This document shows, one piece after another, positions 12,413 through 30,293 of a DNA stretch of 64,000 nucleotides. Source of the stretch: Nitrospira sp. (GTDB lineage: Bacteria > Nitrospirota > Nitrospiria > Nitrospirales > Nitrospiraceae); NCBI GenBank assembly GCA_029194535.1, contig JARFXR010000001.1, positions 1,124,721 to 1,188,720 of the forward strand, in the 5' to 3' direction. The notes beneath the pieces are model-generated. The model was not told the origin of the DNA. It saw nothing but the letters and a program-made list of their open reading frames with translations, and made no database searches. The translations under genes were made by a program, and so were the position numbers. The first letter of the stretch is position 1, and each line of letters opens with the position of its first letter.

Positions 12413-13540
12413 GTGGTCGTGACGGTTTCGACGAGAACTATGGAGCGCATGGCCGGGAAGCTGAGCGATCAACCGCTTCTCTTTCAATACACGATCAAGC
12501 TCGTGCTCTTGGTGTCCTTCCTGGAGTTGATTCTCTATCGCCTGGTGTCCCGTCTGGGCATGCACCTCAGCAAGTTGGCGGCCGACCATCAATGGATCAT
12601 TCCCACCTTTACGGCACTGACGGAGATCGGGCAGTGGCTTCTGAATGCCGTGGCGATTCTCTTGTTCTTGGGGCTGATCCTCGGACTGACGAATCGGCTT
12701 GCCAGTCGCGGCTGGAGCGGTTTGAACAAAGCGACGGTACCCTGCGTGGCGCTGCTCCTGCTCTTGACGGTGGGGTTCCTGTTTGTTCCACCGACGATGA
12801 TCGGGTCGGCCATCTACAATCTGATTGCGTTGACGGCGATCGTGTTGTTGATGGCGGAGTACCTCATGACCCATCACGATTGGTCTCAACGGGTCTTGGG
12901 GGTGGTGTATCTGCTTGGAATTTCGGGCTGGCTGTATTATCAGATGGTCTCCACCTTCTACAGTTTTCTTGGCACCGTAGCGGCTCCCCCCTTCGTCTAC
13001 GAATTTCACCGCGGCGGGGAGGCTCTGATGGTGCTGGCCAGCATCCTGGTCTACGGAGCCTACGGCCGCGGATTGTCCTTTCGCTCTCGGAACCAGCATC
13101 AACGTCGTCGGGCCATCTGTTTTTGGGGGACAGCCGGATGCATTTTCACGGGCATGCTCTTCTTGGATTACCTTCTCAGTCGATACGATCCCGTCATGGC
13201 CAGCAACATCCGCAAGGGTGCCGACGGCATCGGGTGGATTTTCCAGTTTGGAATGGGATACACCTTTTACCTGCCGTTCGCACTGTATATGGCCGGGCTT
13301 CTCTGCTGGTCCTACACCGTGATCCGGCTGTTGACCATGGGAAGGCTTGCCGGCTATGGTCTGGCACTGATGTTCATCGCGGGTTATGCGTTGCTCTATT
13401 CGAATCTGACGTTGATGGTCGTGCTTGGTGTCATGTTGTTGACGATGGATCGGTATCGACGGGAGCCGCTGGAAGCCTCGTCCTCGGTCGGAGCGCCCAT
13501 GCTGGGCAGTCCTGACCGGCTGGCGGGGGATCATATTTAA
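12413..13540 (+). CDS. Polytopic membrane protein, unknown function
   Basis: About nine or ten hydrophobic helices span most of the 375 residues, with a basic loop near residues 223-235 (SRNQHQRRR). No transporter or enzyme motif is recognised. The gene starts at GTG 12413 or, more conservatively, ATG 12440; neither has a good ribosome-binding site. It lies between the radical SAM gene and the TPR/TatA genes in the same direction with small gaps, so a role in the envelope part of the same module is possible. Haem or quinone binding cannot be supported, because no conserved His pairs stand out. Confidence 0.7.
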   Translation: MVVTVSTRTMERMAGKLSDQPLLFQYTIKLVLLVSFLELILYRLVSRLGMHLSKLAADHQWIIPTFTALTEIGQWLLNAVAILLFLGLILGLTNRLASRGWSGLNKATVPCVALLLLLTVGFLFVPPTMIGSAIYNLIALTAIVLLMAEYLMTHHDWSQRVLGVVYLLGISGWLYYQMVSTFYSFLGTVAAPPFVYEFHRGGEALMVLASILVYGAYGRGLSFRSRNQHQRRRAICFWGTAGCIFTGMLFLDYLLSRYDPVMASNIRKGADGIGWIFQFGMGYTFYLPFALYMAGLLCWSYTVIRLLTMGRLAGYGLALMFIAGYALLYSNLTLMVVLGVMLLTMDRYRREPLEASSSVGAPMLGSPDRLAGDHI

Positions 13541-13570
13541 CGAACGGTTGAGGACAGGTGGGAACTTCAC

Positions 13571-14380
13571 ATGAGCGATGATACGAGTGCACAGGCGCAG
13601 CAGAGCCGCGCGGCGGTCGAGCCAAACGACCAGCCGTTGAACCCGGACGAAGAAATCTCCGAAATCGAGAAGCTGTTGACCACAGAGCCTGACGATTTTC
13701 AGGCCCGGTGCCGGCTAGGTGAGCTGTATTTCAGCAAGGGGCGTCTCGACGATGCGCTTGTGGAGGTCAAGAAATCCATCGAAATGGCGGAAGGGCTGCG
13801 CGCCGAAATGAATCGGTCTCTGGCCATGTATTACTCGAATCTGGGAACGATCTATGCGACCAAGAACATGTCCGACGAGGCGGAGACCGAATTCAGGCAC
13901 GCCCTTGACGTGTTCCAGTATGATGTGCTGGCGCTCTTCAATCTCGGGCGAGTCTATGCGGACAAGAAGAAGTACATGGAAGCCAAGGGGTATTACGAGC
14001 GCCTCGTGGAGATCACGCCCGACGACCCCATCGCCTGGTACAATCTGGCGGGGGTTTATGTGGAGCTCGATAATCCCCAAGTGTCTGACTACAATACGAT
14101 TGATATGGCCATTCAATGTTATCTGCGCACGCTTGAGTTGGACCCAAAACATCTGGAGGCGAGTTTCAAGCTGATGGAGCTGGCGTTGAATCACAAGAAA
14201 TCTGATTTGGCCATCAAGGTCATGGAGGATGCGGTCGAGCAGAATGCCGACGAGCCGCTGGCGTACTACAATCTCATCAGCGTGTACGATAAGTGTAAGA
14301 TGTTCGAGCAGGCTGAGCAGGCCCGCCAGCGTTTGAAAGAGCGGTTTGCAAAACGGAGCAAGGAAAGCAGCCCGTCCTGA
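13571..14380 (+). CDS. TPR-repeat protein
   Basis: A soluble 269-residue protein made of about five tetratricopeptide repeats (for example RLGELYFSKGRLDDALVE, ALFNLGRVYADKKKYMEAKG and AWYNLAGVYVEL). There is no signal peptide, so it is probably cytoplasmic and mediates protein-protein contact. The N-terminal 30 residues are acidic and disordered, and the C-terminus is basic. It is followed after 24 bases by tatA, which suggests a joint role in assembly or export of the respiratory proteins encoded around it. Confidence 0.85.
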   Translation: MSDDTSAQAQQSRAAVEPNDQPLNPDEEISEIEKLLTTEPDDFQARCRLGELYFSKGRLDDALVEVKKSIEMAEGLRAEMNRSLAMYYSNLGTIYATKNMSDEAETEFRHALDVFQYDVLALFNLGRVYADKKKYMEAKGYYERLVEITPDDPIAWYNLAGVYVELDNPQVSDYNTIDMAIQCYLRTLELDPKHLEASFKLMELALNHKKSDLAIKVMEDAVEQNADEPLAYYNLISVYDKCKMFEQAEQARQRLKERFAKRSKESSPS

Positions 14381-23674: not shown

Positions 23675-23820
23675 GGCCCGACTTTTCGGACTCGCAGCTT
23701 CGCTAAGGGCGTATCACACCACTCCGCGGTTTCCCCTTCTGATTTCCGTACTTTCGTTGGGTTGAAGCCACGGGTCACCGTGTGACATATAAGCGTCGCT
23801 TAACCACCAGGAGGCATCCC

Positions 23821-25875
<2,055 letters not shown>

Positions 25876-26036
25876 TCTGCTCTGCGCTGCTCGGGACCGG
25901 GGCGGACGAATGTCCGACACAAGGCCCTTCGCATTTTTGCACTCGGCTTGACGCGCTCAAATCGCCTGGAGTAAGGTGAAGACGCGGACCAGAGGTGGAT
26001 CCACGAGACGGCCCCAGTTGTACGGGAGGTGCTCGC

Positions 26037-26234
26037 ATGGAGAAACAAGAGCGTAAGCAAGAGCAGCGGAGAGACCCGCAGGCGAAGGAGGAGGTCAAGG
26101 CCAATCCGAAAGTCGTCGAAGCGGGAAAGAAATTGAAGGAAGACATCGACAAGTTGGTCGACGAGATCGACGACGTCCTCGAGAAAAACGCGGAAGAATT
26201 CGTCAAGAACTACGTACAGAAGGGAGGGGAGTGA
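26037..26234 (+). CDS. pup: Prokaryotic ubiquitin-like protein Pup
   Basis: A 65-residue, highly charged, disordered-looking protein ending in the Pup signature: LVDEIDDVLEKNAEEFVKNY then VQKGGE. The C-terminal Glu is encoded directly, so no deamidase step (Dop) would be needed before ligation by PafA. GGGAGG lies 7 bases before ATG 26037. Pup tags proteins for the Mpa/ARC-proteasome. None of pafA, dop, mpa, prcA or prcB is encoded within the window, which is unusual because pup normally lies next to prcBA. It lies between hppA and recJ. Confidence 0.9.
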   Translation: MEKQERKQEQRRDPQAKEEVKANPKVVEAGKKLKEDIDKLVDEIDDVLEKNAEEFVKNYVQKGGE

Positions 26235-26416: not shown

Positions 26417-28120
26417 ATGAAGTCCAAGCTCTGGGTTTTCCGCGAAATCGATCCCATTCATCGTGAGATCCTGGCACAGGCTCTGTCGATATCGTCTGCG
26501 ACCGCCTCGCTGCTCGTTGCGAGGGGAGTGACGACCCCTGACGAAGCCGCTTCCTGGATGTCCCATCAGCCTTCCCACGATCCGTATCTCATCCCAGACA
26601 TGGAACAGGCAGTTGAACGTCTGCGGCGAGCGGTGGTCGATCACGAGCAGATCTGCTTTTATGGGGATTACGATGTTGATGGGATGACCGCCACCAGCCT
26701 GTATCTTTCGTTCTTCGGCGCTTTGGGCGCCCGGGTTCGCGCGTATGTACCTCATCGCCTGCGTGAGGGGTATGGGCTCAATATGGAAGCAGTACGGCAG
26801 TTGCACGCCGGAGGTATTTCGCTGCTTGTCACGTCCGATTGCGGTACCACCTCTCATCGAGAGCTTGCATTGGCAATGGAACTGGGACTGGACGTCATTG
26901 TGACGGACCATCATCAGACGGATGAGCGGATGCCGCCGGCCGTCGCGGTCATGAATCCGCATCGGGTGGACGCTCAATATCCGTTTCGCGGGCTTTGCTC
27001 TGCTGCCTTGGCCTACAAGGTGGCCGAGGCATACCAGTCCCGTTATGGAGCGGCCGGGATATCGTTGGAATCTCTGCTGGACTTGGTCGCTCTGGCCACG
27101 GTTGCGGATGTGGTCCCACTGCAGAATGAAAACAAAGGATTTGTCCGAGCTGGGCTGGCGCAGCTGTCGCGTGGCGCCCGCTGCGGCATACGTGCCCTGA
27201 AGCAAGTTGCCGGCATCACGAAGGAGTGCACTGCCGAAACCATTGCCTTCAAGTTGGCTCCAAGGCTCAATGCGGCCGGCCGGCTGGATCATGCATTGCT
27301 GGGGGTGCAGCTGTTGACGACCGACTCGCCGGTCGAAGCGCACCGCCTCGCAGATCGACTTGAGCAACTCAACCGTGAACGGCAATCGATTGAGGCCGAG
27401 GTCCTCGCGGAAGCCATCGCGATGGTCAAAATGCTGGAACCGGAGTTGCCGGCCGCGCTGGTACTCGCCTCCCGGCGTTGGCATGTGGGAGTGGTTGGTA
27501 TCGTCGCAGCGAGGCTGGTTGATCGCTATCATCGTCCTTCCGTAGTCATCGCGGTCGACGACCAAGGGGTGGGGAAGGGGTCCGCGCGGACCGTCGGGAA
27601 GTTCGACCTGTATCAGAGCTTGGCGGCATGTCGCGATCTTCTGGAAGCGTTCGGGGGACATCCGAGCGCGGCTGGCGTCACGGTTCGCGAATCGCGGCTT
27701 GCTGAATTTCGTGACCGGTTTGCGGCGATCGCGGCAGCTTGGACGAACACCCATGCCGGGGTTCCGACGTTGCACGTGGACGCGGAATTGCGGCTGGTCG
27801 ACGTCACGACCGGATTGATTGAGGAAATCCGCTCGTTACATCCGTTCGGCGCGGGTAACCCTGAGCCGACCTTTGCGGTAAAAGGCCTCGAGGTCATGGA
27901 GGCTCGCACCGTAGGGGAACGGCATCTGAAGATGACGGTCCGACAGGGCGGTTCACTGCCGTTTGATAGCATCGGGTTCGGGATGCGATCATTGGAGGAT
28001 CGGGGAATTTCACCACGCTCCCCGGTCGATTTGGCTTTTGTGCCCGAGATGAACCGCTGGAACGGCTTCGATCGGATACAGCTCAGAATTCGCGACCTGC
28101 GCCCGAGTGTTCCGGAGTAA
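26417..28120 (+). CDS. recJ: Single-strand-specific 5'-3' DNA exonuclease RecJ
   Basis: 567 residues, the usual length. DHH-family motifs are present in order: YGDYDVDGMTATSL, TSDCGTT and TDHHQ, with RLNAAGRLDHA and the DHHA1-domain GGHPSAAG. The enzyme degrades single-stranded DNA in recombination and mismatch repair and needs Mn or Mg at the DHH site. It ends 4 bases before rel, so the two are co-transcribed. Confidence 0.96.
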   Translation: MKSKLWVFREIDPIHREILAQALSISSATASLLVARGVTTPDEAASWMSHQPSHDPYLIPDMEQAVERLRRAVVDHEQICFYGDYDVDGMTATSLYLSFFGALGARVRAYVPHRLREGYGLNMEAVRQLHAGGISLLVTSDCGTTSHRELALAMELGLDVIVTDHHQTDERMPPAVAVMNPHRVDAQYPFRGLCSAALAYKVAEAYQSRYGAAGISLESLLDLVALATVADVVPLQNENKGFVRAGLAQLSRGARCGIRALKQVAGITKECTAETIAFKLAPRLNAAGRLDHALLGVQLLTTDSPVEAHRLADRLEQLNRERQSIEAEVLAEAIAMVKMLEPELPAALVLASRRWHVGVVGIVAARLVDRYHRPSVVIAVDDQGVGKGSARTVGKFDLYQSLAACRDLLEAFGGHPSAAGVTVRESRLAEFRDRFAAIAAAWTNTHAGVPTLHVDAELRLVDVTTGLIEEIRSLHPFGAGNPEPTFAVKGLEVMEARTVGERHLKMTVRQGGSLPFDSIGFGMRSLEDRGISPRSPVDLAFVPEMNRWNGFDRIQLRIRDLRPSVPE

Positions 28121-28124
28121 TACG

Positions 28125-30293
28125 ATGGTGTATGAAACTGTGACGGATCTTGACCAGTTGCTCGACCGAGTCAAGAGCTATCATGTCGACGCAGATCTGG
28201 GAGTCGTGCGCAAGGCGTATGAATTTTCGGCTCGGGCGCACCAAGGCCAAGTCCGACGGTCCGGTGAGCCGTATCTTCAGCATCCCATCGCCGTGGCGGG
28301 AGTCCTGACTTCGCTGAAGACGGACGTGACGGCCATCGTGGCCGGGCTGCTCCACGATACTCTGGAGGACACTGTCGCGACGCCCGAAGAGCTTGAAAAG
28401 GAGTTCGGCAAAGAGGTCGTGCATCTTGTCGACGGCGTCACCAAGATCGGCAAGATCACCTTTAAGAGCTACGAGGAAAAGCAAGCGGAGAACTTCAGAA
28501 AGATGGTGCTCTCGATGGCGGATGACATCCGCGTCGTGCTCATTAAGCTTGCCGATCGTCTACACAACATGCGCACCCTGGAGCATCTCAGCCCCATGAA
28601 GCGGCAGGCCATTGCGCAGGAAACGTTGGAGATCTACGCGCCGCTTGCCAACCGTTTGGGAATCGGTTGGATCAAGAACGAATTGGAGGACCTGTGCCTG
28701 AAACATCTGAAGCCAGATGTGTACGAAATGCTTCGGGTGCGTGTCGCGAAGCGAGATGAGGATCGCCAACAGTATATTCAGGAAGTCATCGAATTGGTGA
28801 ACCACGCAATGCGAGAGAATGGGCTGTCCGGGCAGGTGTATGGCCGTCCCAAGCACCTGTACGGGATTTATCAAAAGATGAACAAGCAGGCCATCTCCTT
28901 CGAAGAAGTCTACGACCTGACCGCGCTGCGTATCGTCACCGATACCAAGATGGGCTGCTATGCCTTGGTGGGTGTGATCCATTCTCTCTGGCGTCCCGTT
29001 CCTGGGCGCTTCAAGGACTATATCGCCATTCCCAAGTCCAACCTGTACCAGTCGTTGCACACAACGGTCGTCGGCCCAAAGGGTGAACATGTCGAATTTC
29101 AGATCCGAACGGAAGATATGCACCGTGTGGCCGAATATGGGATTGCGGCTCATTGGAAGTACAAAGAGCAGGGGCGCGTCACGGATCGTGACAGCAAGGC
29201 CTTCGGTTGGCTGCACCAATTCGTGGAATGGCAGCGTGACCTGACCGATAATCGTCAGTTCATGGATTCCGTCAGACTCGACCTCTTTCATGACGTCGTC
29301 TATGTGTTCACGCCCAAGGGCATCTTGAAGGAGTTGCCGAAGGGCTCGACTCCGGTGGACTTTGCCTTTGCGATCCACACCGAAGTCGGCGATCATTGTG
29401 TCGGCGCCAAGGTCAACGGGAAAATCGTTCCCTTGAAGCATCAATTGGAAAGTGGAGACACGGTGGAGATCCTCACGTCACCCACGCAGACTCCGCACAA
29501 AGATTGGTTGAAATTCGTCCGCACATCGCGCGCCAAGACGAAGATCAAGCATTGGATCAAGGTCGAAGAGCAGAAGCGCAGCATCGAAATTGGACGCCGT
29601 CTGTTGGAATCGGAGTTTAGACGACACGGCATGGCTCCCGCCCAGATGTTGAAGTCGGCTGAATTGTTGGATGTGGCTCAACAGGCGGGATTCGATACGA
29701 CCGATGATCTGGCGGCTGCGGTAGGGTTCGGCCACATGTCGACGGCGCAGGTGATCGGTAAACTGAAGGCTGCCTCGACACCGGCCGAAGAGCGACCGAC
29801 CGTGCAAAAGGCGTCGTCCGTCAGAAGCGACGACAAGGGGGTCAAGGTCAGAGGGGCTCGAGATCTCTTGATGCAACTGTCACGTTGCTGCAATCCGGTG
29901 CCTGGGGATCGCATACTCGGATACATCACGCGTGGACGAGGCCTGACAATCCACGCCATTGATTGTCCCAATCTCGAGGCGCTGGACTACGATCGAGAAC
30001 GATTGGTCGAAGTGGAATGGGATTCCGCTACGCCCAGTACGCATGCGGTCAAAGTGTCGGTGATGGCCGTAGACAAGACGGGAGTGCTGGCCAACGTCTC
30101 CTCGGCCATCGCGGAATGTCACGCCAATATCAGCCGGGCGGAGATCGCGACGCGCGAGGACCGAAAAGCCGTCCTGGACTTTATCATCGAAGTGTCCGGT
30201 ACGCAGCACTTAGATCAAGTGCTGAAAGCAATCGAGCGAGTCGACGGGGTGATTACAGCCAGACGAGTGCGTGCCTGGCAAGAGCGGTCATAG
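28125..30293 (+). CDS. rel: Bifunctional (p)ppGpp synthetase/hydrolase
   Basis: Domains in order: an HD hydrolase (LLHDTLEDT), the synthetase (GRFKDYIAIPKSNLYQSLHT, EFQIRTEDMHRVAEYGIAAHWKYKE), TGS (PKGILKELPKGSTPVDFAFAIH), a helical/zinc-finger segment (LSRCCNPVPGD, with HAIDCPN) and a C-terminal ACT domain. Both catalytic halves look intact, so it should make and break the alarmone in response to starvation. Start at ATG 28125, just after recJ. A hairpin follows at 30332. Confidence 0.95.
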   Translation: MVYETVTDLDQLLDRVKSYHVDADLGVVRKAYEFSARAHQGQVRRSGEPYLQHPIAVAGVLTSLKTDVTAIVAGLLHDTLEDTVATPEELEKEFGKEVVHLVDGVTKIGKITFKSYEEKQAENFRKMVLSMADDIRVVLIKLADRLHNMRTLEHLSPMKRQAIAQETLEIYAPLANRLGIGWIKNELEDLCLKHLKPDVYEMLRVRVAKRDEDRQQYIQEVIELVNHAMRENGLSGQVYGRPKHLYGIYQKMNKQAISFEEVYDLTALRIVTDTKMGCYALVGVIHSLWRPVPGRFKDYIAIPKSNLYQSLHTTVVGPKGEHVEFQIRTEDMHRVAEYGIAAHWKYKEQGRVTDRDSKAFGWLHQFVEWQRDLTDNRQFMDSVRLDLFHDVVYVFTPKGILKELPKGSTPVDFAFAIHTEVGDHCVGAKVNGKIVPLKHQLESGDTVEILTSPTQTPHKDWLKFVRTSRAKTKIKHWIKVEEQKRSIEIGRRLLESEFRRHGMAPAQMLKSAELLDVAQQAGFDTTDDLAAAVGFGHMSTAQVIGKLKAASTPAEERPTVQKASSVRSDDKGVKVRGARDLLMQLSRCCNPVPGDRILGYITRGRGLTIHAIDCPNLEALDYDRERLVEVEWDSATPSTHAVKVSVMAVDKTGVLANVSSAIAECHANISRAEIATREDRKAVLDFIIEVSGTQHLDQVLKAIERVDGVITARRVRAWQERS

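Follow-up and report, generated by a model that had tools for sequence, protein, structure and literature searches.

Described Pup–proteasome systems

The closest described counterpart of the locus analyzed here is the Pup–proteasome system of Mycobacterium tuberculosis and other Actinobacteria, with which it shares the tag family and the five partner proteins, the C-terminal half of Pup being nearly identical between the two. They differ in that the pup of Nitrospira lies 46 kb away rather than between dop and prcB, and in that its product is encoded with a terminal Glu instead of Gln. A C-terminal Glu is also encoded in Corynebacterium glutamicum, which likewise retains dop (PMC3511204) but has no proteasome core, whereas the Nitrospira genome has one. 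In Leptospirillum ferrooxidans two copies of the whole system have been reported, the second with a tag lacking the terminal GGE (PMC3511204), and the UBact system is attributed to Lehmann et al. 2017 where that work is cited in PMC12751074. Thus, the presence of two parallel tag–proteasome sets per genome, which Nitrospira shares with both precedents, is not new to the phylum. However, for Leptospirillum the reported context of both tags is the standard one, while the Nitrospira pup is unlinked from its operon. One published summary places pup without exception beside a PafA-family gene (PMC2588565), and another describes the gene order as rigidly conserved (PMC3511204); the order including Nitrospira is a clear exception to both statements. 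We found no description of such a detached layout in the literature covered, which is largely open-access.

The Pup gene and its C-terminus

The window, a 64,000-nucleotide stretch (C1:1124721–1188720) of a Nitrospira sp. genome of 3.98 Mb that is 99.88% complete, contains on its forward strand a reading frame from an ATG at 26037 to a TGA ending at 26234. Its 65-residue product ends in VQKGGE, with the Gly-Gly-Glu codons at 26223–26231 directly followed by the stop codon at 26232–26234; the C-terminal GG[EQ] expected of a Pup is thus present as KGGE. Profile searches recover the Pup family (PF05639) at 78 bits (cut-off 27; E-value 1.1e-21) and the NCBIfam model of the Pup C-terminus (TIGR03687) at 61.6 bits (cut-off 41.45). 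Pup is the sole Pfam family matched, the UBact model (PF20513) giving no match to this product, and the solved M. tuberculosis Pup aligns without gaps with its last 38 residues. Comparison with 30 relatives yields a mean pS of 0.86 and pN of 0.058 per site, which marks a constrained coding gene under strong purifying selection and excludes a chance reading frame. The start at 26037 is supported by a Shine–Dalgarno sequence, GGGAGGTG (26024–26031, forward strand), conserved among relatives. A longer frame of 79 codons from a GTG at 25995 was also considered and ruled out, as both the Shine–Dalgarno sequence and the relatives favor the ATG.

One could read this gene as a decayed or stray copy without function on the ground that its position is unlike that of the published loci (PMC3511204, PMC2588565). 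We give this reading a negligible probability: the gene is the single PF05639 match in the whole genome, its coding sequence is constrained, and its position is common to the entire order (see below).

An initial annotation, made from the window alone, had singled out the encoded GGE. The ending is real but not special: the genome retains dop, GGE and GGQ replace one another in close relatives, and the above-mentioned C. glutamicum provides a precedent. Within the group sharing the relocated pup, the Pups of L042, L044, L125 and L126 end in GGQ and most others in GGE, and dop persists within the operon in those order-mates that were read. Dop doubles as the depupylase, so keeping it alongside a Glu-ending Pup is to be expected, as in C. 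glutamicum. The encoded Glu is therefore ordinary and carries no special message.

A complete partner operon without pup

The window carries no proteasome, ligase or depupylase gene, and such a single-window view invites the reading of an orphan tag, which the initial annotation indeed adopted, while allowing that the other genes might lie elsewhere and proposing a genome search for pafA, dop, arc/mpa and prcBA. Family searches across the whole genome recovered four PafA/Dop-family genes, five proteasome-fold genes and two ARC-like ATPases (plus weaker AAA matches), all outside the window. Among these, arc, dop, prcB, prcA and pafA form one operon on the same contig and strand as pup, 45.6–51.9 kb downstream of it and beginning at C1:1196561, 7.8 kb beyond the window end (L015 7841–14173, with pafA at 12773–14173). 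Hence, the suggestion that the partners lie elsewhere was borne out, and the remoteness of pup from proteasome and ligase genes holds within the window but not for the contig, on which the operon is complete. A second pup in a normal proteasome locus, which that annotation had named as grounds for abandoning its view, was not found in this genome.

All five products exceed their NCBIfam equivalog cut-offs, and alignments with solved homologues span most of the length of ARC, Dop, PrcB and PafA. Residue 54 of PrcB corresponds to the first residue of the solved mature PrcB chains, consistent with the expected processing of a catalytic threonine. The ARC protein ends in GHYL, which resembles the GQYL tail of Mpa. 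The operon itself contains no pup, and its dop–prcB junction is closed to a 4-base stop/start overlap, ATGA. Thus, PafA, Dop, ARC/Mpa, PrcB and PrcA are all encoded in the genome, and the one departure from a canonical system is that pup does not adjoin dop or prcB, being 45.6 kb apart; such adjacency is the usual gene order and not a biochemical requirement.

A Pup devoid of its enzymes, with a role other than PafA-driven proteasomal tagging, would fit the lack of ligase and proteasome genes in the window. We regard it as very improbable, given the complete partner set on pup's own contig and the observation that, in our phylum sample, every genome with the first enzyme set has Pup, and a genome with only the UBact set has none. 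The different tagging role that the initial annotation had entertained thus finds no support next to a complete standard partner operon. Instead, we hold it very likely that 26037–26234 encodes the sole Pup of a normal Pup–proteasome system with a split layout that arose by one ancestral relocation.

The UBact system and co-occurrence across Nitrospirota

A second contig (C2) carries another set, complete and divergent, arc′–dop′–UBact–prcB′–prcA′–pafA′ (L016 5173–11927, reverse strand), and the UBact gene of the genome (C2:508429–508554) lies inside it, separate from pup. None of the proteins of this locus reaches the Pup-system NCBIfam cut-offs; its ligase (L016 5173–6657) is a PafA homologue scoring 330 bits with TIGR03686, under the cut-off of 551. 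In addition, a third proteasome-fold protein (L010 1285–2019, reverse strand; near 1069076 of C2) is clearly Anbu, matching Anbu structures in the PDB with E-values down to 1e-96, so that, together with the Pup-type and UBact-type cores, the genome has three proteasome-like peptidases.

Across a sample of 148 Nitrospirota genomes, Pup is found in 69, UBact in 53 and PafA/Dop-family genes in 70. Pup occurs without UBact in 17 genomes; each of these has exactly two PafA/Dop genes, and those examined carry the first-type operon (L100, L101, L102, L104, L105, L110 and L113, among others). The only genome with UBact alone also has two PafA/Dop genes and carries the second-type operon (L133). Genomes with both tags have four such genes, except for one with three and two with five, and those with neither tag have none. 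Each of the two tags follows a ligase/depupylase pair of its own, Pup traveling with the first set.

These patterns bear on whether Pup might be shared with, or mainly used by, the UBact-type ligase and proteasome, an idea that draws on the presence of both systems in one cell and on the homology of the UBact-locus ligase to PafA (TIGR03686). We consider it improbable: in the 17 genomes Pup is accompanied by a single PafA/Dop pair and UBact is missing, in one genome UBact is present with a pair of its own and Pup is missing, and the UBact system has its own tag gene adjoining its enzymes. This leaves the first operon as the favored partner of the Nitrospira Pup.

A probable single relocation of pup in the order

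In the Nitrospira genome, pup is preceded on the same strand by hppA for a membrane pyrophosphatase (23782–25875; NF001951, 1018 bits) and followed by recJ (26417–28120; TIGR00644, 528 bits) and a gene of the relA/spoT family (28107–30293; TIGR00691, 798 bits). Each of the 28 pup loci found on named contigs of close relatives is flanked by hppA on the upstream side, by recJ on the downstream side, or by both. Where only one neighbor is seen the contig usually ends there, though L041 keeps hppA and shows no recJ within 7.4 kb downstream of pup. The gene lies away from dop in seven genomes of the family and six of the sister family read in detail; indeed, in all order-mates examined it is detached from dop and nearly always positioned 5′ of recJ–relA. 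In the order's second family this position is seen in 6/6 genomes, with no pup at the dop–prcB junction. Where both are on one contig, the pup–dop distance in the family is 40–62 kb in 16 genomes and 130–220 kb in four, reaching up to 1.4 Mb in the second family. The order dop–pup–prcB is found in six genomes of the class's other families and recurs elsewhere in the phylum.

In a tree built from the Dop, PafA and PrcA sequences, all Nitrospirota with the relocated gene form one clade (local support 1.000) that nests among lineages keeping pup in place. The layout thus has a single origin, and the tree implies, as the simplest history, one relocation of pup in the ancestor of the order. The outgroup operon L050 has no hppA, recJ or relA in its 10-kb flanks, suggesting that it was pup, and not the operon, that moved.

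Detached pup genes also occur in MAGs of NC10/Rokubacteria, with other neighbors (L047 10001–10195, L048 10001–10195, L055 5469–5669 and L120); in L047 these are an Mrp/NUBPL-type and a MoCF_biosynth gene. The genome of L055 has a dop–prcB junction without pup (L120) and falls outside Nitrospirota in the tree, likely reflecting a second, independent detachment. A MAG labeled as Nitrospinota (L044 882–1082) shows the pup–recJ–relA layout typical of this Nitrospirota order and is probably mislabeled, or else records a transfer. One MAG has two near-identical pups on contigs ending at the same place (L031 10001–10195 and L036 130–324), which are probably strain variants in the assembly.

A putative promoter of pup

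The gap between hppA and pup aligns poorly among relatives except for an element of the form TTGACG-N17/18-TAWGGT, kept about 65–100 bases 5′ of pup. In Nitrospira it reads TTGACG-N18-TAAGGT (25948–25977, forward strand), a promoter-like assignment based on the relatives' upstream pattern and alignment, with a weak second hexamer. A looser version of the pattern is present in 36 of 40 upstream regions from relatives, which as kin are not independent, against 0.5% of shuffles. The strict pattern has no occurrence in the arc-operon locus. The element escaped a generic promoter scan, which we ascribe to the weak TAAGGT hexamer, and an Rfam search of the 64-kb window returned no match. These features suggest that pup probably has its own promoter beside recJ–relA, which would allow the tag to be regulated separately from the machinery.

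Proposed function and implications

By homology to the known Pup pathway, Pup would be made from its own promoter and, by virtue of its Glu end, be ligated by PafA directly onto substrate lysines; the ARC ATPase would then capture the tagged proteins for delivery into the PrcBA core, with Dop removing and recycling Pup. On the evolutionary side, a single departure of pup from the dop–prcB junction would have taken place in the order's ancestor, with pup settling 5′ of recJ–relA, a move after which the tag level could be set apart from the machinery level. More speculatively, the promoter beside recJ–relA might set the amount of Pup throughout the order independently of ligase and proteasome, making tag supply the rate-setting step of pupylation, perhaps along with proteasome-independent Pup signaling, and this in bacteria that mostly operate UBact as well; we regard this as doubtful.

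What the locus offers is thus a known tag and known machinery in a split layout, with no sign of new chemistry: the system is complete and only divided. As most bacteria of this order carry two parallel tag–proteasome systems, they are a natural place to study whether such tags are kept apart and what governs their supply.
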